The position numbers and the translations under genes were made by a program. Positions 34,465-44,871 of a stretch of 64,000 nt of DNA are shown piece after piece (the first letter of the stretch is position 1; every line of letters begins with the position of its first letter). The notes beneath the pieces are model-generated. The model searched no databases and was not told the DNA's origin. It saw only the letters and a list, made by a program, of their open reading frames with translations. The DNA comes from Microbacterium keratanolyticum (lineage in GTDB: Bacteria > Actinomycetota > Actinomycetes > Actinomycetales > Microbacteriaceae), in contig NZ_JAFBBQ010000001.1 in assembly GCF_016907255.1 (NCBI RefSeq), positions 2,790,001-2,854,000 on the forward strand. Direction: 5' to 3'.

Positions 34465-34511
34465 CGCGTCGCAATCCGGTCTGAGCGAATGTGCAGCGCC
34501 CCCGCCGTTCG

Positions 34512-34525
34512 TGCTCATATGAGCA
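34512..34525. promoter_or_regulatory. Putative DeoR operator
   Basis: Perfect 14-base palindrome TGCTCATATGAGCA, 28 bases upstream of the TATGGT -10 (34554-34559) of deoR. Palindromes of the TGA..CATATG..TCA kind are common for SorC/DeoR sugar-sensing regulators, so this is the likely site for the regulator encoded next. Confidence 0.65.
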
Positions 34526-34565
34526 ATGCGGTGCGCGTACGCAGGTACGGGCGTATGGTCGAGGC

Positions 34566-35513
34566 ATGACGATCACTCTCGACGACGAGCTGCTCGCCGT
34601 GCGTGTCGCGGAGCTCTACTACGACGACAACAAGACACAGGACGAGATCGGCGGCCTGCTGCGCATCTCGCGCTGGAAGGTCGGTCGTCTGCTGGCTCAG
34701 GCGCGCGAGGCGGGGATCGTTCGGATCGAGATCGTGCACCCGCGTGCTCGCAGGCTCGGCGTCGAGCGAGAGCTCCGCCAGCGATTCGGGCTCGCGGACG
34801 CGGTCGTCGTCCCCTCTTCGGGGGAAGGCGAGGATTCGCTGGAGCGCGTCGCACAGGCTGCGGCGGACCTGCTGGCCGCGCTCCGACCCGTGCCTCGCAC
34901 GCTCGCGGTCAGCTGGGGACGCACGCTCACCGCGACCGCAGAGCGGCTGCCCGAGCGATGGGCGCACGGCGTCACGGTCGTACAGATGAATGGCGGCGTC
35001 AGTGTGAATCGCCGTCCCGGCGGGGCGGCCTCCCTCGCGGCGACGATCGCCCAGCGTGGCAACGGTCAGGTCGCGCTGCTGCCCAGCCCCGCGATCCTGG
35101 AGCGTCTGGAGACCAAGCAGGCGATCGAAAGCGATCGCACGGTGGCGGGAGTCCTTGAGCAGGCCGCATCCGCGGACGCCTTCCTCTTCACGGCGGGTGC
35201 GTGCGACCGTCATTCTGCGCATGTCGAGAACGGCTACCTGAGTGTCGACGACATCCTCGAACTCGCCCAGCGCGGTGCGGTCGGCGACGTTCTCGGCCGC
35301 TACATCGACGCGGACGGCCATATCGTCGCTCCTGAGCTGGATGCGCGCACGGTCGGCCTGGGGCTCGACCGCCTGCGTTCCGCGGAGACCGCCATTTTCG
35401 TGACGTCCGGTCACGGCAAATACGACATCGCCCGCACCGTCGTGACGACGGGGCTGTGCAGCGTACTCGTGACCGACGAAGAAACCGCTCGAGCACTCTT
35501 GGAGGAGAAGTGA
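34566..35513 (+). CDS. deoR: SorC/DeoR-type transcriptional regulator of deoxyribonucleoside use
   Basis: Regulator of the SorC family (the group that includes Bacillus DeoR), 315 residues. The N-terminal HTH (about 14-45) reads LYYDDNKTQDEIGGLLRISR, then VGRLLAQAREAGIVRI. The C-terminal sugar-phosphate-binding domain follows (SWGRTL, MNGGVSV, FTAGACD). Known DeoR proteins of this type respond to deoxyribose-5-phosphate. It overlaps deoC in GTGA (35510-35513), giving strong functional linkage. Start ATG at 34566, 6 bases after TATGGT (leaderless pattern); the frame is open from 34491. Confidence 0.88.
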   Translation: MTITLDDELLAVRVAELYYDDNKTQDEIGGLLRISRWKVGRLLAQAREAGIVRIEIVHPRARRLGVERELRQRFGLADAVVVPSSGEGEDSLERVAQAAADLLAALRPVPRTLAVSWGRTLTATAERLPERWAHGVTVVQMNGGVSVNRRPGGAASLAATIAQRGNGQVALLPSPAILERLETKQAIESDRTVAGVLEQAASADAFLFTAGACDRHSAHVENGYLSVDDILELAQRGAVGDVLGRYIDADGHIVAPELDARTVGLGLDRLRSAETAIFVTSGHGKYDIARTVVTTGLCSVLVTDEETARALLEEK

Positions 35514-36511
35514 CGACAAGTGAACTCACCCGCCGGACGGCGGAAGACATGTTGGGTGGTGAACCCGACAACGCGACACTCCGGCGCTTCCTGCATGGGC
35601 TGCCTGGCGTCGATGCCGTGGGGCTCGAGCAGCGCTCTGCGGCGCTCGGCACCCGTTCGATCAAGACGACGTCCAAGGCGTGGGCGCTCGACACGATCGT
35701 CCGGCTCATCGACCTGACGACGCTGGAGGGTGCGGATACACCGGGGAAGGTGCGATCGCTCGTCGCGAAGGCGATGAACCCGGATGCCGCGGATCCGACG
35801 ACCCCGTTGGTCGCCGCTGTCTGCGTCTACGGCGACATGGTGCCCTACGCGGTCGAGGCGCTCGGCGCACGGCACGGCGACCCGGATCACGGTGGCGTCT
35901 CCGTCGCCGCCGTGGCGACGGCGTTCCCGAGCGGTCGCTCATCGATGGCCATCAAGCTCGCGGACACCCGTGAGGCCGTCGCTGCCGGCGCGGATGAGAT
36001 CGACATGGTCATCGACCGCGGCGCGTTCCTCTCGGGGAACTACGCACTCGTCTTCGAGCAGATCGTGCGTGTCAAAGAAGCATGCCGCCGTGAGGACGGC
36101 AGCTACGCCTCGCTCAAGGTGATCCTGGAGACGGGGGAACTGAACACCTACGACAACATCAAGCGGGCGTCATGGCTCGCCATCCTGGCGGGCGGCGACT
36201 TCATCAAGACGTCCACCGGCAAGGTCGCCCCTGCGGCCACTCTGCCCGTGACGCTGCTCATGCTGGAGGTCGTGCGCGACTGGTACCGCCTGACCGGCGA
36301 GAAGATCGGTGTGAAGCCCGCCGGTGGCATCCGCACGTCCAAGGACGCGATCAAGTATCTCGTTCTCGTTGCCGAGACCGTGGGGGAGGACTGGCTGCAG
36401 CCGCACCTCTTCCGCTTCGGCGCTTCCAGTCTTCTGAATGACGTTCTCCTGCAGCGCCAGAAGCTTCGTACCGGCCACTACTCCGGCCCCGACTACGTGA
36501 CCATCGACTAG
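35510..36511 (+). CDS. deoC: Deoxyribose-phosphate aldolase
   Basis: Cleaves 2-deoxyribose-5-phosphate to acetaldehyde and glyceraldehyde-3-phosphate. 333 residues, the longer actinobacterial form with about 80 extra N-terminal residues compared with short DeoC. The Schiff-base lysine is in DFIKTSTGKVAPAAT, and the second lysine in VKPAGGIRTSKDA. Also conserved are VCVYGDMV, AVATAFPSG and DEIDMVIDRG. Start GTG at 35510 overlaps deoR by 4 bases. The product acetaldehyde is likely handled by the dehydrogenase encoded next. Confidence 0.96.
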   Translation: MTTSELTRRTAEDMLGGEPDNATLRRFLHGLPGVDAVGLEQRSAALGTRSIKTTSKAWALDTIVRLIDLTTLEGADTPGKVRSLVAKAMNPDAADPTTPLVAAVCVYGDMVPYAVEALGARHGDPDHGGVSVAAVATAFPSGRSSMAIKLADTREAVAAGADEIDMVIDRGAFLSGNYALVFEQIVRVKEACRREDGSYASLKVILETGELNTYDNIKRASWLAILAGGDFIKTSTGKVAPAATLPVTLLMLEVVRDWYRLTGEKIGVKPAGGIRTSKDAIKYLVLVAETVGEDWLQPHLFRFGASSLLNDVLLQRQKLRTGHYSGPDYVTID

Positions 36512-36515
36512 GAGC

Positions 36516-37958
36516 ATGATGAGTTTCCTGGAATACGCACCCGCGCCCGAGGCGCGATCGATCCTCTCGCTGCGCGACAGCTACGGACTCTTCCTTGACG
36601 GAGAGTTCGTCGAGGGACGGGGAGAGCCGTTCACGACGATCTCCCCGGCGGATGAGTCGCACATCGCAACGATCGCGCACGCCTCCGAAGAAGACATCGA
36701 CGCTGCGGTCGCCGCAGCGCGCCGCGCCCACACCAAGGTGTGGTCGAAAATGTCCGGTCGTGATCGCGGGAAGTACCTCTTCCGCATCGCGCGGCTCGTG
36801 CAGGAGCGCGCCCGTGAGCTCGCTGTCGCCGAGAGCCTCGACAACGGCAAGCCCATCAAGGAAGCCCGCGACGTCGATGTTCCGCTCGTCGCATCCTGGT
36901 TCTTCTACTACGCAGGCTGGGCCGACAAGCTCGACTACGCCGGCCTCGGCGCCGACCCCCGCTCGTTGGGCGTTGCGGGGCAGATCATCCCGTGGAACTT
37001 CCCGCTGCTGATGCTGGCGTGGAAGGTCGCCCCCGCTCTCGCGGCGGGCAACACGGTCGTCCTGAAACCGGCGGAGACCACGCCGCTCACCGCGCTCCTG
37101 TTCGCGGAGATCCTGCAGCAGGCGGATCTTCCCGCTGGAGTCGTCAACATCGTGACCGGGGCAGGTGCCACGGGAGCGGCGCTCGTGCGGCATCCGGATG
37201 TCGACAAGATCGCCTTCACCGGATCCACCGGCGTCGGGCGTGAGATCGCACGCACGGTCGCAGGTTCCGGAAAGAGCGTGACGCTGGAGCTGGGCGGCAA
37301 GGCTGCCAACATCGTGTTCGATGACGCCCCGATCGACCAGGCGGTCGAAGGGATCGTCAACGGCATCTTCTTCAACCAGGGGCACGTCTGCTGCGCAGGG
37401 AGCCGTCTGCTTGTGCAGGAGTCCATCCACGACGAGGTCGTCGACCGCCTCAAGACTCGTCTGTCGACTCTGCGCCTGGGCGATCCCCTCGACAAGAACA
37501 CCGACATCGGTGCGATCAACTCCGCCGAGCAGCTGGCTCGAATCAAGGAGCTCAGCCAGATCGGCGAGGACGAGGGCGCCCAACGCTGGACCGCGGAGTG
37601 CGCGATCCCGGAGAAGGGCTTCTGGTTCGCCCCGACGATCTTCACCGGCGTCGAGGCATCCCACCGCATCGCCCGCGACGAGGTCTTCGGACCCGTCCTC
37701 TCGGTGCTGACCTTCCGCACTCCCGCCGAGGCGATCGCTAAGGCCAACAACACTCCGTACGGTCTGTCGGCGGGCATCTGGTCGGAGAAGGGCTCGCGGA
37801 TCCTCGCGGTCGCCGATCGACTCCGCGCGGGCGTCGTCTGGGCCAACACCTTCAATCGTTTCGACCCGTCGAGCCCGTTCGGCGGATACAAGGAGTCTGG
37901 CTACGGCCGCGAAGGCGGACGCCACGGACTCCAGGCATACCTCAAGGGGGCAAAGTGA
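36516..37958 (+). CDS. Aldehyde dehydrogenase (NAD(P)+), probably for acetaldehyde
   Basis: Full-length aldehyde dehydrogenase, 480 residues. Asn161 in PWNFP, Lys184 in KPAETTP, Glu258 in LELGGK and the nucleophile Cys292 in GHVCCAG are all present, with GSTGVG for the coenzyme. Placed 4 bases after deoC, it likely oxidises the acetaldehyde made by DeoC to acetate; that substrate is inferred. A second ATG at 36519 is an alternative start. Its stop overlaps the next gene in GTGA. The next gene encodes a half-length relative. Confidence 0.93.
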   Translation: MMSFLEYAPAPEARSILSLRDSYGLFLDGEFVEGRGEPFTTISPADESHIATIAHASEEDIDAAVAAARRAHTKVWSKMSGRDRGKYLFRIARLVQERARELAVAESLDNGKPIKEARDVDVPLVASWFFYYAGWADKLDYAGLGADPRSLGVAGQIIPWNFPLLMLAWKVAPALAAGNTVVLKPAETTPLTALLFAEILQQADLPAGVVNIVTGAGATGAALVRHPDVDKIAFTGSTGVGREIARTVAGSGKSVTLELGGKAANIVFDDAPIDQAVEGIVNGIFFNQGHVCCAGSRLLVQESIHDEVVDRLKTRLSTLRLGDPLDKNTDIGAINSAEQLARIKELSQIGEDEGAQRWTAECAIPEKGFWFAPTIFTGVEASHRIARDEVFGPVLSVLTFRTPAEAIAKANNTPYGLSAGIWSEKGSRILAVADRLRAGVVWANTFNRFDPSSPFGGYKESGYGREGGRHGLQAYLKGAK

Positions 37959-38806
37959 GCGCGCGACTGACTGTTCCGAAGACGTACAAGCTCGCCATCG
38001 GCGGGGCCTTCCCGCGGAGTGAGTCCGGGCGCACCTACGAGGTGCGCTCTGCGAAGGGGGCGTTCCTCGCCAATGCGGCCAAGGCGTCGCGAAAGGACGC
38101 GCGCGATGCGGTCGTCGCTGCCCGCGCCGCTGTCAAAGGCTGGTCCGGGGCGACGGCGTACAACCGCGGCCAGGTGCTCTACCGGGTTGCGGAGGTGCTC
38201 GAAGGGCGCCGTGCGCAGTTCGTCGACGAGATCGTCCTGCAGCAGGGTGTGAACGCTGCCGCGGCGGGCGCGCAGGTCGACGAGGCAATCGACCTCTGGG
38301 TCTGGTACGCCGGTTGGTGCGACAAGTATGCACAGGTCGCCGGAAACGCGAACCCTGTCTCGGGTCCGTACTTCAACATCTCGGTTCCGGAGCCGACGGG
38401 CGTTGTTGCGACGATCGCCCCGCAGGACTCCGCTCTGCTCGGCCTGGTGGCGACCGTCGCGCCTGCGCTTGTGGCGGGTAACACGGTGGTCGTGATCGCG
38501 AGCGAGCAGTATCCGCTCTCGGCGATCAGTCTTGCGGAGGTGCTCGCGACGAGCGATGTGCCCGGCGGTGTTGTGAACGTGCTGACGGGCTCGCCCGCGG
38601 AGATCGCTCCGTGGCTGGCATCGCACGCCGACGTCAACGCGCTCGATCTCACCGGTGCGGGCGCGCTGGAGTGGATCGACCTGCAGATCGCGGCAGCGGA
38701 TACCCTCAAGCGCGTCATCACGCCGGGGGAGCCGACCGCATCACCGCAGCGGATCGCGGCGTTCACCGAGGTGAAGACCGTGTGGCATCCGAAGAGCATG
38801 GTCTGA
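37955..38806 (+). CDS. Half-length aldehyde dehydrogenase-like protein lacking the catalytic half
   Basis: 283-residue protein aligned with the N-terminal (coenzyme-domain) part of aldehyde dehydrogenases. The PWNFP motif is replaced by IAPQDSALL, the KPAE lysine by VIASEQ, and the GSTGVG loop by LTGAGAL. The sequence stops before the LELGGK glutamate and the catalytic cysteine. It therefore cannot be an aldehyde dehydrogenase by itself. The ORF is intact, well-coded and translationally coupled (GTGA overlap) to the full-length enzyme, so it is not an obvious pseudogene. A structural or regulatory partner of the full enzyme is my inference. Confidence 0.85.
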   Translation: MSARLTVPKTYKLAIGGAFPRSESGRTYEVRSAKGAFLANAAKASRKDARDAVVAARAAVKGWSGATAYNRGQVLYRVAEVLEGRRAQFVDEIVLQQGVNAAAAGAQVDEAIDLWVWYAGWCDKYAQVAGNANPVSGPYFNISVPEPTGVVATIAPQDSALLGLVATVAPALVAGNTVVVIASEQYPLSAISLAEVLATSDVPGGVVNVLTGSPAEIAPWLASHADVNALDLTGAGALEWIDLQIAAADTLKRVITPGEPTASPQRIAAFTEVKTVWHPKSMV

Positions 38807-38880: not shown

Positions 38881-39615
38881 TCAGGCCTCGTCCGGCGCCG
38901 AGGATGTTGCGAACAGGTCGAGCGGCACGACGGACAGATCGACGACGTGCTTGGCGAGGTAGACGAACTTGCCCGGAGCCTGGGCCGTGAAGGTCACGGT
39001 GACGAGGGTCCGTGCCTCTTTCCGGGGTGAGCCGATGCGACGCGTGTCGGTGATGTACGGGGCCAGGCGCAGAGAGGTCAGTGCGGCTTTCGCCTGATAC
39101 TGCGCGCCGAGCTGCGCGAACAGGGTGGCCTCATCCGAGGCGTCGACGGGCTCGTGCCCGGCCTCGATGAACTCCAGTGCGCTGGCGACGATCCTGTCGC
39201 CGATCAGCAGCTCACTCTCCCACGTGACGATGTCGTCCCCGCGCTGGATCTCGAGGAGCCGGGAGTTCCACTCGGTTGCGGGGGAAGGTGTGCGGGCGAC
39301 GCGACGGACGACGACAGGGGAGTGGGTGCGCGCCATCGCCTCGAGTGAGACGACCGTCCCGAGGCGTGCCGGTGCCATTCCCGCGATGTGCCGGCGCCGT
39401 CCGGGACCGCGCTCGATCACCCCATCCTCTTCCAGAAGAGCGAGCGCCTGCCGGACGGTGGTCCGGCTGACACCGAGCTGTCGGGTGAGCTCTTCCTCGG
39501 TGGGGAGGGCGGCATGGGGGTCTCGGGACGTCGAGAGGGCGTCGAACAGGCTGTCGTAGACCTGGACGGCGAGCGGGCGGCGGTCACGGACCGGCGGAAG
39601 CTTCATGAGGGTCAT
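38881..39615 (-). CDS. GntR-family regulator, HutC (UTRA) type
   Basis: 244-residue repressor-like protein. The N-terminal GntR winged helix (about 15-75) reads LPTEEELTRQLGVSRTTVRQ, then LALLEEDGVIERGPGRR. The C-terminal UTRA domain (about 90-235) normally binds a small ligand; ligands for this class include sugars, amino acids and nucleoside-like molecules. Start ATG at 39615 with a GGAG 12 bases upstream; an internal ATG at 39606 is possible. Divergent from the PfkB-SLOG-ABC genes, it is likely their regulator and autoregulated through the site at 39641-39685. Confidence 0.88.
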   Translation of the reverse strand: MTLMKLPPVRDRRPLAVQVYDSLFDALSTSRDPHAALPTEEELTRQLGVSRTTVRQALALLEEDGVIERGPGRRRHIAGMAPARLGTVVSLEAMARTHSPVVVRRVARTPSPATEWNSRLLEIQRGDDIVTWESELLIGDRIVASALEFIEAGHEPVDASDEATLFAQLGAQYQAKAALTSLRLAPYITDTRRIGSPRKEARTLVTVTFTAQAPGKFVYLAKHVVDLSVVPLDLFATSSAPDEA

Positions 39616-39640: not shown

Positions 39641-39685
39641 CAATCTGTAGTATGTTGTCGAGCATTAGACATTGTAGTCAGATTG
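39641..39685. promoter_or_regulatory. Inverted repeat in the GntR / PfkB divergent promoter
   Basis: CAATCTG (39641-39647) and CAGATTG (39679-39685) form the outer arms of an imperfect dyad in an AT-rich stretch between the divergent genes. Inner TTGTC (39655-39659) and GACAT (39668-39672) half-sites are roughly symmetric. A minus-strand TACAAT at 39671-39676 is a candidate -10 for the regulator. Likely operator of the GntR protein; unproven. Confidence 0.5.
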
Positions 39686-39703: not shown

Positions 39704-40696
39704 GTGCACTCGGAGACCAGAGTCAACGTCGTCGGCGGTTTCACCATCGACGCGATCATCCGTGCCGATGGCACCTGGACGACAGGCCAGCTCGGTGGAA
39801 ACGCGCTGTGGGCGTCCGCGGGGATGCGGCTGCGCACCGGGGCACACCCGGTGGCGCATTCGGTGATCGGTGTGGACTATCCGGCATCCGCACTCGACGC
39901 CGTACGTGCGCAGGGGATCGACATCCACGGCGTCCGCCGGGGTGGAGGGCGCACAGCGCGGATCACCTTCGCCTACCGTCCGGACGGCACCCGCTCGCAG
40001 CCCGCTCCCGCGGATGCCGTCGGCCGACTTCCGCTCCACGTGCAGCCGGAGTTCGCCGACACGACGCGGGAGCCGGCGATCACCCTCGCCTCGCTGCCGG
40101 AGGGGGCGGATCTTCTCAGCGCCGCCGTAGAAGGCGGAGCGTGGCACCTCGGGCTGCTTCCTCCCGCACGTTTCGCGGAACTGACCTCCGCGCTCCGTGG
40201 CGCCGGGGTCGGATACCTCCAGGCGGATTGCCCGGCGCGCTCCGAACTGCTGCGCGATGGTGATGCCGTGCTGCGCTCGCACCTGAGTGAGCTCGATGCC
40301 TTCCTTCCGAGCACATCCGACACCGACGTCTTCGCTCCCGGTGTCGCGCATGCGGAGCTGGTCTCTCGCTTCCACGAGTACGGCGCACCGATCGTCGTGA
40401 TGAAGCGCGGCGAAGAGGGAGCACTGGTCTCGGATGCGACCACCGGCGAGCGCTGGTCTGTGCCGGCGTATCCGGTCGGCGAGCACCTGGATGCCACCGG
40501 CGCCGGTGACGTCTTCTGCGGCGTCTTTGCCGCCGCGCGCGCTGCCGGTGCGACGGTGATCGACGCTGCGGTGGAGGCATCCGTCTATGGCTCCTATGCG
40601 CTCAACGCTCCCAGCCCCCTGGCGCTTATCGCCCAGCCTCTCGACGACATCGACGAGCGCATCCACCACATTCGAAACGGAGTGACCCCGCTATGA
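39704..40696 (+). CDS. PfkB-family carbohydrate/nucleoside kinase
   Basis: ATP-dependent kinase of the ribokinase/PfkB family, 330 residues. The N-terminal motif GQLGGNALWASAG (Gly31-Gly32) and the C-terminal DATGAGDVFCG with catalytic Asp269 are intact. The family phosphorylates sugars and nucleosides (ribose, adenosine, pseudouridine and others), and I cannot name the substrate. Start GTG at 39704 (MHSETRVNVVGG) behind CGGGAGAG; the frame extends upstream into the operator. It is followed after 0-4 bases by the SLOG protein gene, so the two act together. Confidence 0.88.
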   Translation: MHSETRVNVVGGFTIDAIIRADGTWTTGQLGGNALWASAGMRLRTGAHPVAHSVIGVDYPASALDAVRAQGIDIHGVRRGGGRTARITFAYRPDGTRSQPAPADAVGRLPLHVQPEFADTTREPAITLASLPEGADLLSAAVEGGAWHLGLLPPARFAELTSALRGAGVGYLQADCPARSELLRDGDAVLRSHLSELDAFLPSTSDTDVFAPGVAHAELVSRFHEYGAPIVVMKRGEEGALVSDATTGERWSVPAYPVGEHLDATGAGDVFCGVFAAARAAGATVIDAAVEASVYGSYALNAPSPLALIAQPLDDIDERIHHIRNGVTPL

Positions 40697-41271
40697 GAAA
40701 GACCACGATCGGCGTCATCGGCAACGCCGCGCGCCCCGGCGTCGAGCTGCCCGCAACGCTGCTCGGCGCGGCCCGTGAGGTGGGTGCGCACATCGCCCGA
40801 TCGGGTGCCGTCCTCGTCACCGGAGGAACCGGCGGGGTCATGGAGGCCTCTGCTGAGGGAGCGAAGTCCGTCGACGGTCTGACGATCGGCTTCTTGCCGC
40901 AGGCGGACTTCTCGCATGCCAACGACTTCACAGACATCGCGTTCCCGACCGGAATGGGCACGATGCGCAACATTCTCACAGCCCGCTGCTGTGATGCCCT
41001 CATCATGGTCGGCGGCGGTATCGGCACGCTCAACGAGCTGACGATCGCCTATGACGTGGGCACGCCCGTCATCGTGCTGCGTGGCACGGGCGGGTGGGCC
41101 GATCGCATCGCATCCTCGCTCGTCGACGGGCGCTGGCTCGATGAGCGACGCGTCTCCGAGCTGGAGTTCGCCGATTCCCCCGCGGATGCCGTCCGCGACG
41201 CCCTCGCCGCTGTGCACCGTCCACGCCGTGCCGGCGCGCTCCAGGCGCACACCGGTCATGCCGGTGCCTGA
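40693..41271 (+). CDS. SLOG/LOG-fold protein, possible nucleotide N-glycosidase-like
   Basis: 192 residues in a Rossmann-like SLOG/LOG fold: VTGGTGGVMEA at about 42-52, GTMRNILTA at about 89-97, and GGGIGTLNEL at 107-116. The last resembles the PGGxGTxxE phosphate/ribose motif of LOG phosphoribohydrolases, which release free bases from nucleoside 5'-monophosphates. The first Pro of the motif is Gly and the Arg/Lys region differs, so it falls nearer the DprA-related hypothetical LOG families. A role in cleaving or carrying a phosphorylated nucleoside is inference. ATG at 40693 overlaps the kinase stop in ATGA. Confidence 0.75.
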   Translation: MRKTTIGVIGNAARPGVELPATLLGAAREVGAHIARSGAVLVTGGTGGVMEASAEGAKSVDGLTIGFLPQADFSHANDFTDIAFPTGMGTMRNILTARCCDALIMVGGGIGTLNELTIAYDVGTPVIVLRGTGGWADRIASSLVDGRWLDERRVSELEFADSPADAVRDALAAVHRPRRAGALQAHTGHAGA

Positions 41272-41322
41272 ACCCACACTTTCCATCCACCCGAACACCC
41301 GTACCCACTCCGGAGGAGAACA

Positions 41323-42372
41323 ATGAAGTCCATCCGCACGCGCGCCGTCCTCGCAGCCATCGCTGCCGCCGCGCTCGTCACCACACTCACCTCGTGCGCC
41401 CCCGCGGCGGACAGCGCTGCGGAAGGCGCCGACTTCGGCGGCCTCGCTCTTCAGCTGTCCTTCGTGAAGAACTCGCAGAACAGCGGCGAGTACATCGCCG
41501 ACAGCGAGGGCTTCTACCTCGACGAGGGCTTCACGAGCGTCGACCTCATCGCCGGCCCGACCGCGGTCGAGGCATCCGTCGCATCGAACAAGGCCGACGT
41601 CGGCTTCTCGACCGCGCTGACCGCCGCGAACGTCATCGCGACCGAGGGCATGCCCGTGAAGATCGTCGGCGCGGTCTACCAGCGCAACGCCTTCACGATC
41701 CTGTCGCTCGACGGCGACGGTGCGATCCGCACGCCGAAGGATCTGGAAGGTGCTCGCATCGGCATCACCGCCGGTACCGCGAAGACGATCGTCGAGGCGC
41801 TGGCCAAGGCCAACGACATCGATCCGGCATCGGTCACATTCGTCCCGGCCGAGGGCAACCCCGCGTTGCTGACGAACGGCGAGGTCGACGGATACTTCGG
41901 CCTCGACACGAACGAGCGCATCGTGCTCGAACAGCAGGGACATAAGATCGTGTCGCTTCCGCTCGCCGAGAACGGCCTGCCCTTTGCAGGCACGAGCTTC
42001 ATCGTGACCGATGACGCACTCAAGAACGATCGGGAGCGCGTCAAGGCCTTCCTGCGCGCGGAGATCCGCGGGTGGACGGCGGCGATCGCCGACCCGCAGA
42101 AGGGCGTCGACCTCGCGCTGAAGACCTACGGATCCGACCTGGGCCTGGACGCGAAGAAGGAAGCAGCGCAGGGCGCGATGCAGATCGACTACGTCTACCC
42201 TGCGACGTCTGCGGAGACGGGTCTGTTCTATCTCACGGAAGAGGCCATCGCGCAGAACATCGCATCGATCGAGTTCGCCGGCGTCAAGATCGCCGCGGCC
42301 GACCTGTTCGACATGAGCCTGCTCGACGAGATCTACGCCGAGAACCCCGAGTTGCGGGAGGTCGGCAAGTGA
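41323..42372 (+). CDS. ABC transporter substrate-binding lipoprotein, NMT1/THI5 (NitT/TauT) type
   Basis: Secreted lipoprotein of 349 residues. The lipobox TLTSC places lipid-modified Cys25 after a classic signal. The mature protein has the NMT1/THI5-type periplasmic fold ([20 protein letters not shown] near the start, [41 protein letters not shown]). This family binds pyrimidine precursors, riboflavin precursors, sulfonates, nitrate and similar small solutes. The ligand cannot be read from sequence. Start ATG at 41323 behind GGAGGAG. Its stop overlaps the ATPase GTG start in GTGA. Confidence 0.88.
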
Positions 42373-43202
42373 CCGCGAGCGCACTTCACGAGCGCGGTGA
42401 CGCGGTGTCATCCGCGGATCAGGGATTCGTGCTGGACGGTCTGACGAAGACGTTCGGGCGAGGAAAGGGCACCGTCACGGCGTTGTCGGACGTCTCGCTC
42501 TCCACCCAGAAGGGCGAGCTGCTCGCCCTTCTGGGGCCCTCGGGCTGCGGGAAGTCGACGATCCTGCGCATCCTCGCCGGGCTGGATGAGCCTTCTGCGG
42601 GCAGCGTCACGGTGCACGGCGAGGACCCCGCCCGCATTCGTGCGCAGCACCAGATGGGGATCGCCTTCCAGGACTCGGCGCTGCTGCCGTGGCGCAGCGT
42701 CTACGCGAATGTGCGCCTGCCGCTGGAGATCTCCGGGGTGGATGTCGCGCGCGACGAACTGCTGGATCTGATCGGACTGGTCGGACTCAAGGGCTTCGAG
42801 AACGCCCGACCCGCACACCTCTCCGGAGGGATGCGCCAGCGCGTCTCGATTGCGCGCGCTCTCGCGGTGCGTCCGTCCGTGCTGCTGCTGGATGAGCCCT
42901 TCGGCGCTCTCGATGACATGACCCGTCAGCGGATGAACCTGGAGCTGCAGCGGATCCTTGCGGCGAAGCCCGCCACGACCCTGCTCGTGACCCATGGCAT
43001 CACCGAGGCGATCTTCCTCGCAGATCGGGTGGCCGTCATGAGTGCTCGTCCTGGGCGCGTCAAGACGATCCTCGACATCGACCTGCCGCGGCCGCGGACG
43101 CCGGAGCTCATGCGCTCGCCTGAGTTCCATGCGCTCGTCGACGAGGCGACCGAGCTGCTGTTCGAGGAATCCAACGCGCTTCCTGCCGAGGCGCGACGAT
43201 GA
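42369..43202 (+). CDS. ABC transporter ATP-binding protein, NitT/TauT type
   Basis: Transport ATPase of 277 residues. Walker A is GPSGCGKST, the Q-loop lies in [11 protein letters not shown], the signature is LSGGMRQR, Walker B is [13 protein letters not shown], and the H-loop is LVTHGITE. These match the SsuB/TauB/ThiZ type. Start GTG at 42369 overlaps the binding-protein stop in GTGA, and its stop overlaps the permease ATG in ATGA. It supplies energy for the fused permease that follows. Confidence 0.94.
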
Positions 43203-44824
43203 GTGCCACGGTCGCGATCGCCGTCGGCGCGAATCCGCGGCGACGGCGCATCGATCCGCGGCTGTTCGGCGTGCTCGGATCGCTCGGGATCATCGCGCTG
43301 TGGTGGCTTCTGGCCGCGGGGCCGCTCGCGGCCGCGGGCACGGTTCCCACCCCGCCCGCGGTGGTTGCGCAGTTCGCCGCCGACGGCTTCGCCTTCTACT
43401 GGGCGAACGCCTCGGTGACGATGCTCGAGGCGGTCCAGGGCTATGCCATGGGTGTCGGTCTCGGCCTGGTGGCCGCATCGCTCGCTCTCATGATCCCGGC
43501 GACCGAGCGCTTCGTCGTGCAGCTCGCCGTCATCACGTACTGCGTCCCTATCGTGGCCATCGGCCCCATCGTCTACCTGCTGGTGGGTGCTCCGCGCGGT
43601 GGCGGGCCCTCCGGAACGGCCATCGTGCTCGCCGCGATCGCGGTGTTCTTCACCACGGTCGTCAATGCGATGCTTGGGTTCCGGGCGGCGGACAAGCGCG
43701 CGCTCGACCTGGTGACGGCCTACGGCGGCGGCGCCGCGACGCGACTGCGCAAGGTGCAGCTCTTCAGTGCGCTGCCGTCGATCTTCAGCGCTCTGAAGAT
43801 CGCGGCTCCCGGCGCACTTCTCGGTGCGATCCTCGGCGAGTACGTGGGCGGAGTGGACCGCGGGCTCGGTGCCGCGATGGTCAACGCGCAGCAGAACATG
43901 GACGTCGAGCGGACGTGGGCGGTCGCGATCGTCGCCGCGGCGATCGCGGGCGGATCGTTTGCACTGATCGGGCTCCTGGAGTGGTTCGCGCGTCGCATCG
44001 GACTGGTCGCCGAGGCGACGACGGCCGGCTTCGCGAGTGAGGATGCCCTGCAGGGTCGCGGGGGCTGGCGCTCGGTGCTGGCGACCGTCGGCACGGTCGC
44101 GGTGCTCGTACTGCTCTGGGATCTCGCGCTGAGGATCTTCCACGTCTCTCCGTTCGTCGGCAAGGGGCCGCTCGACGTGTGGGCGTTCTTCACAACAGCC
44201 GAGGGCGCGGCGGCCAACAGATCGCAGATCCTCGCCGACACGGTCGTGACTCTCGGCCATGCGGGCATCGGTTTCACGGCTGGTCTGGGAGCGGCGATCG
44301 TCATGGCGATGCTGTTCGTGCTCGTGCCTCCGCTCGAGTTCGCGATCATGCCGTTGGCGATGATGATGCGCTCGGTGCCGCTGGTCGCGCTCGCGCCCAT
44401 CGTGATCCTGATCTTCGGACGGGACATCATGACCCTCTCCGTGATCGGTGGACTCGTGGTCTTCTTCCCGGCGCTCGTGAACGTGACCATGGGGCTGCGC
44501 AGCACTCCGGCGCAGATGACCGACCTCATCAGCGTGTACGGCGGGCGCACGCCGACGGTGCTGCGGATGGTGCGGGTTCCGGCGGCGCTTCCCGCCCTGT
44601 TCTCATCGATCAGGATCGCCATTCCGGGAGCGATCGGCGGCGCGCTGCTCGCAGAGTGGCTCGCCACCGGAAACGGACTGGGGTACGGCATCGTCTCGGC
44701 AATCGGACGGTCTGACAACACCTTCGTCTGGGCCTGTGTCGTCGCGATCACGCTCTCGTCGCTGCTCCTGTACGGCGTGGCGTCGATCATCGAGCGCGTC
44801 GTGCGGCGCCACTGGGGCGGATGA
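43199..44824 (+). CDS. ABC transporter permease, two membrane domains fused
   Basis: 541 residues containing two successive BPD-type permease domains (about 1-275 and 285-541), each with five to six helices and its own EAA-like coupling loop. These loops are [20 protein letters not shown] in the first and [20 protein letters not shown] in the second. Most NitT/TauT transporters encode one permease that dimerises, so a fused pseudo-dimer is unusual and suggests asymmetric halves. The short linker lies around 270-290. Start overlaps the ATPase stop by 4 bases. A terminator follows at 44835. Confidence 0.9.
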
Positions 44825-44834
44825 CCGCGGAGCG

Positions 44835-44871
44835 TGCGACCCCGACTGGATGTCTTGCAGTCGGGGTCGCA
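44835..44871 (+). terminator. Terminator of the PfkB-SLOG-ABC operon
   Basis: Perfect 14-base-pair stem TGCGACCCCGACTG (44835-44848) / complement (44858-44871) with a 9-base loop, 10 bases after the permease stop. No T-tract. It separates the operon from the clpX promoter. Confidence 0.85.

Follow-up and report, generated by a model that had tools for sequence, protein, structure and literature searches.

The cassette and its genes

The window analysed here is a 64,000-nucleotide stretch of the Microbacterium keratanolyticum genome (RefSeq assembly GCF_016907255.1, 3.07 Mb, single contig; contig NZ_JAFBBQ010000001.1, positions 2,790,001 to 2,854,000 of the forward strand). It holds a six-gene cassette, in which genes for a PfkB-family kinase, a SLOG-fold protein and a NitT/TauT-type ATP-binding cassette (ABC) importer lie divergent from the gene for a GntR-family regulator. 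The features are as follows.

38881..39615, minus strand: GntR-family regulator, divergent (PF00392, 52.4 bits)
39655..39671, no strand assigned: putative operator TTGTCGAGCATTAGACA, near-palindromic, in the divergent promoter region (by eye)
39704..40696, plus strand: PfkB-family kinase, predicted nucleoside 5'-kinase (PfkB profile, fold and context)
40693..41271, plus strand: SLOG protein of TIGR00725/LDcluster4, predicted nucleotide N-glycoside hydrolase
41323..42372, plus strand: substrate-binding lipoprotein, NMT1/THI5-like (PF09084, 136.9 bits)
42369..43202, plus strand: importer ATPase, NitT/TauT type (PF00005; best NCBIfam model ntrCD, 203.7 bits, below its cut-off of 291.8)
43199..44824, plus strand: importer permease with two fused permease domains (PF00528, BPD_transp_1, in two stretches)
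44835..44871, no strand assigned: 14-bp perfect inverted repeat 3' of the permease gene, likely a terminator and the right end of the inserted cassette

A preliminary description of this DNA had named the same six genes, and all are present where it placed them, the regulator lying outside the range it gave for the module. Its picture of five tightly overlapping genes fits three junctions, which share 4 bases each, but not the SLOG and lipoprotein genes, which are spaced 51 bases apart. Likewise, the regulator that it called HutC-type does have a GntR DNA-binding part, but scores 38.4 bits against the HutC model TIGR02018 (cut-off 220), and no UTRA domain is listed for it at E<=0.01. The NMT1-type binding protein, the ATPase and the BPD_transp_1 permease occur together, as in NitT/TauT importers, and the sequence matches of the lipoprotein among solved structures are a solute-binding protein and THI5/THI13.

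The kinase-SLOG pair is the conserved unit

What is conserved of this cassette in other genomes? A search for kinase homologues scored the 7998 candidates with which most words were shared. Species genomes were scanned with patterns from the kinase alone. Of the 21 loci returned, 19 proved to be true relatives; the other two (L031 and L032; 33% and 32% identity over 95 residues) have no SLOG gene in the stretch and were excluded. With the window and one further genome (G875) added, 21 loci were counted, duplicates once (L010/L052=L016, L011/L051=L024, L038=L012, L040=L026, L042=L021, L050=L030); gene calls at these loci are crude, and some starts are too long. At all 21, a SLOG gene lies directly 3' of the kinase gene on the same strand (21/23 if L031 and L032 are counted). 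Because the loci were found by kinase patterns or a kinase profile only, this adjacency is not circular. The reverse search agrees with it: a SLOG profile run against 398 Microbacteriaceae genomes gave four matches, all of them adjoining the kinase and all among the 21 loci. Across 396 genomes of the phylum (E<=1e-30) there were five SLOG matches, of which one was strong, the window's own; the four distant proteins reach 128–139 bits with the profile that gives 298–326 for paired ones, and the kinase profile found no match in their flanks of about 1.5 kb.

Few genomes carry the kinase, namely 5 of the 295 searched in the genus and 3 of 199 in the family, the window's own included both times. 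The pair is present in two bacterial phyla; Actinomycetota and Alphaproteobacteria are both represented, and its carriers include Celeribacter, Pseudooceanicola and Actibacterium. The full order GntR-PfkB-SLOG-NMT1-ATPase-permease occurs, among the 21 loci, in the window and in L012 (Microbacterium sp. MYb66) only. Conservation of the neighbourhood, whose absence the preliminary description had listed among the grounds for refuting its proposal, holds for the kinase-SLOG core and not for the gene order as a whole; nor is the NitT importer a fixed member, as an NMT1-type importer is found at the same two loci alone. A kinase-SLOG pair whose importers can be exchanged is the most fitting description of the module.

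Trees of the kinase and of the SLOG protein (20 loci) recover the same three groups, associated with NitT or major facilitator superfamily (MFS) importers, with a nucleoside hydrolase, and with a BMP importer plus Rieske oxygenase. L030 is the exception: the kinase tree places it with the nucleoside-hydrolase loci, the SLOG tree with the NitT/MFS loci. Placements within the BMP group differ between the trees, and L029 sits on a long branch. Since the BMP/Rieske group mixes Actinomycetota with Alphaproteobacteria, horizontal transfer of the pair is suggested. L028, whose kinase is broken, was left out of the trees and kept in the adjacency count; on this metagenome-assembled Breoghania contig (L028:10050-15526) the kinase, ATPase and permease genes are all fragmented, through decay or sequencing error.

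Features of the two enzymes

The kinase belongs to the PfkB/ribokinase superfamily (PfkB profile 54.5 bits, cut-off 25.8), and G266, G268 and D269 of its GAGD motif are invariant in 30 of 30 sequences. Fold comparison places it nearest a nucleoside kinase; with the PsuK-family model NF007355 it reaches 18 bits against a cut-off of 540.

The SLOG protein, which the preliminary description had linked with LOG-fold enzymes, is not a canonical LOG. It falls instead in the TIGR00725/LDcluster4 family (TIGR00725 144 bits, cut-off 106.9; PF18306 139 bits, cut-off 26.3), has TM1055 and molybdenum-cofactor (Moco) carriers as its closest folds, and gives 44.8 bits with the LOG model (cut-off 300). R92, N93, G108, G109, G111, N114 and E115 are invariant in 41 of 41 SLOG sequences. 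Among them, R92 and E115 correspond to the LOG catalytic Arg/Glu pair and stand 23 residues apart, the spacing of Arg99 and Glu122 in CgLOG (PMC4979012, in excerpt).

Partner genes and the substrate class

Partner genes were counted by tblastn (E<=1e-12), each family being represented by one or two query sequences, so that distant relatives may be missed; Pfam/NCBIfam scans cover these representatives only. BMP-type (PnrA-like) ABC genes lie near the pair at 11 of the 21 loci, and a further locus, L018, has a single BMP-type permease gene at its contig end. A GntR gene of the cassette's type is found at 14 loci, a Rieske oxygenase and an aldo/keto reductase at 10 each, a nucleoside hydrolase at 5, an adenosine-deaminase family gene at 3 and a UriT-like MFS gene at 2. 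More distant NitT-type ATPase and permease genes lie about 7 kb from the pair in L015 and L016.

The binding protein of L020 is assigned by Pfam to the PnrA-like Bmp family, with BmpA first among solved structures and TmpC also listed, and the MFS protein of L013 scores 421.8 bits with the uridine transporter model UriT, below its cut-off of 600. Importers of different families are thus swapped around a constant pair and two of them resemble nucleoside importers, which argues for a nucleoside-like substrate. The L020 Rieske protein is nearest in sequence, among solved structures, to SxtDIOX, SxtT and the methylxanthine N-demethylases NdmA and NdmB; the L026 deaminase exceeds the adenosine deaminase cut-off (233.2 against 216.55), and an L026 amidohydrolase is nearest 5'-deoxyadenosine deaminase (413.1, cut-off 522). 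Oxygenase and deaminase partners speak for a substituted purine, and the substrates are probably modified purine nucleosides. The NMT1 match had been taken as a pointer to a pyrimidine-like ligand; it says little by itself, and the context favours purines over pyrimidines.

Several loci carry further genes by the pair. In L015 and L016 (L015:11584-15156, L016:11585-15157; scanned in L016), an amidase with an AtzH-like domain and proteins resembling a flavin monooxygenase and a ureidoglycolate lyase are encoded beside hydrolase, kinase and SLOG genes; they may form a route that opens the ring of the base once freed. Three actinobacterial loci (L024:5171-7953, L026:5207-7971, L047:3602-6336, and genes downstream) hold an NtaA/DmoA-type flavin mononucleotide-dependent monooxygenase, a purine-type amidohydrolase and extra Rieske genes. 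In L017, the hydrolase-kinase-SLOG genes have as neighbour the gene of a lipoprotein-like secreted protein that matches nothing in Pfam or NCBIfam (L017:7756-8940); in L015 and L016, its orthologues adjoin a NitT-type ATPase gene. The window genome itself has two nucleoside hydrolase genes elsewhere, each adjoining a PfkB gene.

A proposed route and its alternatives

What is the physiological role of the cassette? We think it rather probable that it is a self-contained catabolic or salvage unit acting on a compound of the nucleoside type, with a modified purine nucleoside as the likeliest candidate. This compound would be taken up by the NitT-type importer, and the kinase, judging from fold and context, would phosphorylate its 5'-hydroxyl. 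The SLOG protein may then hydrolyse the N-glycosidic bond of the nucleotide to base and ribose 5-phosphate, using LOG-like Arg/Glu catalysis with a different base pocket, while the GntR protein would keep the operon repressed until an inducer comes. At loci of the BMP/Rieske branch, demethylation or hydroxylation of the freed base, and its deamination, would probably follow. The preliminary description had already likened kinase and SLOG protein to the two-step nucleoside cleavage by PsuK/PsuG; the context lends support to this (21/21 linkage, nucleoside-type importers, hydrolases, Rieske enzymes, deaminases and kinase fold), but it is of the purine type, not pyrimidine. A narrower proposal, possible if doubtful, is a pathway whose substrates, set free by RNA turnover, are purine ribonucleosides with N-alkyl groups such as methyl; it would comprise dedicated import, 5'-phosphorylation, hydrolysis by the TIGR00725 protein, Rieske demethylation and deamination, with the window as a minimal form whose importer has been swapped.

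A number of observations weigh against the main proposal. Ribokinase is merely 2.3 Z units behind the nucleoside kinase in the fold comparison. The Arg/Glu pair, at the same spacing, also occurs in Moco carriers and TM1055 and is no proof of hydrolysis, and the LOG motif PGGxGTxxE (PMC6864091, PMC4979012; both in excerpt) reads GGGxGTLNE in the SLOG protein, the proline being replaced by Gly in 39 and by Asn in 2 of the 41 sequences. At the positions of Met96, Lys100 and Glu121, given in the same excerpt of PMC4979012 as the adenine contacts of CgLOG, an alignment places G89, N93 and N114 in all 41. The partners also complicate the picture: among curated models, the BMP protein comes closest to a putative vitamin B6 transporter protein (93.1 bits, cut-off 400), and the nucleoside hydrolase to the pyrimidine-preferring RihA and UriH (169 bits each, sub-cut-off). 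Where such a hydrolase lies beside the kinase, at 5 of the 21 loci, a second cleavage route would be partly redundant. Near the L030 pair, tblastn found none of the partners counted above, bar a weak ATPase match, and no recognised importer or nucleoside gene lies there. Finally, there is no VanA_C-type Rieske gene in the window genome; for this reason, its strain would mainly use the sugar phosphate or hand the base to general salvage.

The main rival reading, which we regard as unlikely, turns on the kinase: its substrate may be the free sugar (ribose, or a modified form of it) that a nucleoside hydrolase releases, with the SLOG protein as a nucleotide-binding sensor or in another step. This is strongest for the five loci that have the hydrolase, but at 16 of 21 tblastn found no hydrolase relative in the stretch (other glycosidases were not systematically searched), in L018 the pair is followed by another kinase, one that resembles ribokinase (249 bits, cut-off 299.65), and a sensor would need no linkage to the kinase at every locus. 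A different view of the SLOG protein is that it carries or binds molybdenum cofactor (pterin), the compound processed by the module being pterin-like or derived from a cofactor. We consider this quite improbable, as it leaves the constant PfkB pairing and the nucleoside-type importers unexplained, and a single locus of the 21 showed a molybdenum-enzyme gene, in a scan that did not take in every gene.

LOG chemistry, together with partners such as adenosine-deaminase family proteins and Rieske enzymes that come nearest to N-demethylases, would also suit a module specific to cytokinin ribosides, whose kinase makes the riboside phosphate and whose LOG-like enzyme frees the cytokinin. The residues at the adenine-contact positions differ from those of CgLOG in every SLOG sequence, however, and the pair is carried by Celeribacter, Pseudooceanicola and Actibacterium, which are marine genera; such specificity is very unlikely.

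The cassette as a discrete insertion

The second aldehyde dehydrogenase gene upstream of the cassette, encoding only 283 residues in the window, was searched in 59 Microbacterium genomes and matched in 28, the window's own included. In 11 of the 27 others, clpX follows in the same orientation after 57–178 bases, and in a twelfth (L060) after 740 bases. No clpX was seen within a flank of about 1.5 kb in 14, and L081 has a clpX match of merely 34 residues on the other strand. None of the 27 has a GntR or kinase gene in this flank. The site is thus empty in 11 Microbacterium genomes, and in the window the sequence upstream of clpX picks up again at about 44872, like that of the empty-site relatives. 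Because of these empty sites and the resumption of this sequence after the inverted repeat, the six genes form a block of about 6 kb with clear ends. L012 has the same block at the same place, with identities to the window of 67% (kinase) and 79% (SLOG), and of 87–89% for the flanking aldolase and dehydrogenases. When the kinases of the window and of L020 were compared with 72,556 plasmid records (E<=1e-20), no match was found.

Between two clpP genes and the cassette, the window encodes a SorC-like regulator (Sugar-bind domain), a DeoC aldolase and two aldehyde dehydrogenases (34491-38806). DeoC and the dehydrogenases (35510-38806) were considered as module members since L012 and L029 share them, and were rejected; as the dehydrogenase gene has no GntR or kinase gene in its flank in 27 other genomes, they are older neighbours.

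Stretches like the putative operator were seen by eye in L012, L013 and L014. A stricter pattern, scanned in 14 loci, matched in L013, L014, L020, L024, L026, L028 and L047 and gave no match in the window, L012, L019, L022, L023, L025 and L027; it also matched 1–13% of shuffles. The case for the operator in the window, made by eye, is weak.

Relation to known systems

In the PsuK/PsuG system, a PfkB-fold kinase acts first and the 5'-phosphorylated nucleoside is then cut to base and ribose 5-phosphate. The predicted kinase-SLOG route would follow the same logic by analogy, but its cleaving enzyme is a SLOG protein, its kinase is distant in sequence from the model for PsuK and its context is of the purine type; no PsuG-family glycosidase occurs in the cassette, where the five other proteins match other Pfam families. 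With LOG, the SLOG protein shares the fold, the Arg/Glu pair 23 residues apart and the phosphate-binding GG-x-GT; it differs in lacking the motif proline, in its base-contact residues and in falling below the cut-off of the LOG model. In plants, adenosine kinase and LOG phosphoribohydrolase both act on ribosides, as products of separate genes from other subfamilies and in hormone metabolism. By sequence and closest folds the SLOG protein is a member of TIGR00725/LDcluster4, with TM1055 and the Moco carriers, differing from the four distant members, which have no such kinase nearby (flanks of about 1.5 kb). To our knowledge, the TM1055/Moco-carrier group has no fixed kinase partner, and we know of no test of its hydrolase activity.

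RNA degradation releases modified nucleosides, and we know of few bacterial routes for their breakdown. In the literature covered (titles and abstract openings, with most subscription papers and all preprints outside), neither the kinase-SLOG pair nor the pathway is described, and our analysis points to a nucleoside-degradation route for which no description was found there. The pair, constant at every counted locus while the transporters change, offers a compact two-enzyme target for substrate screening. If true, the proposed route would assign an enzymatic role to the TIGR00725 family, and with it catalysis to a Moco-carrier-like branch of SLOG proteins, and would place a second, unrelated 'phosphorylate, then cut' solution alongside PsuK/PsuG.
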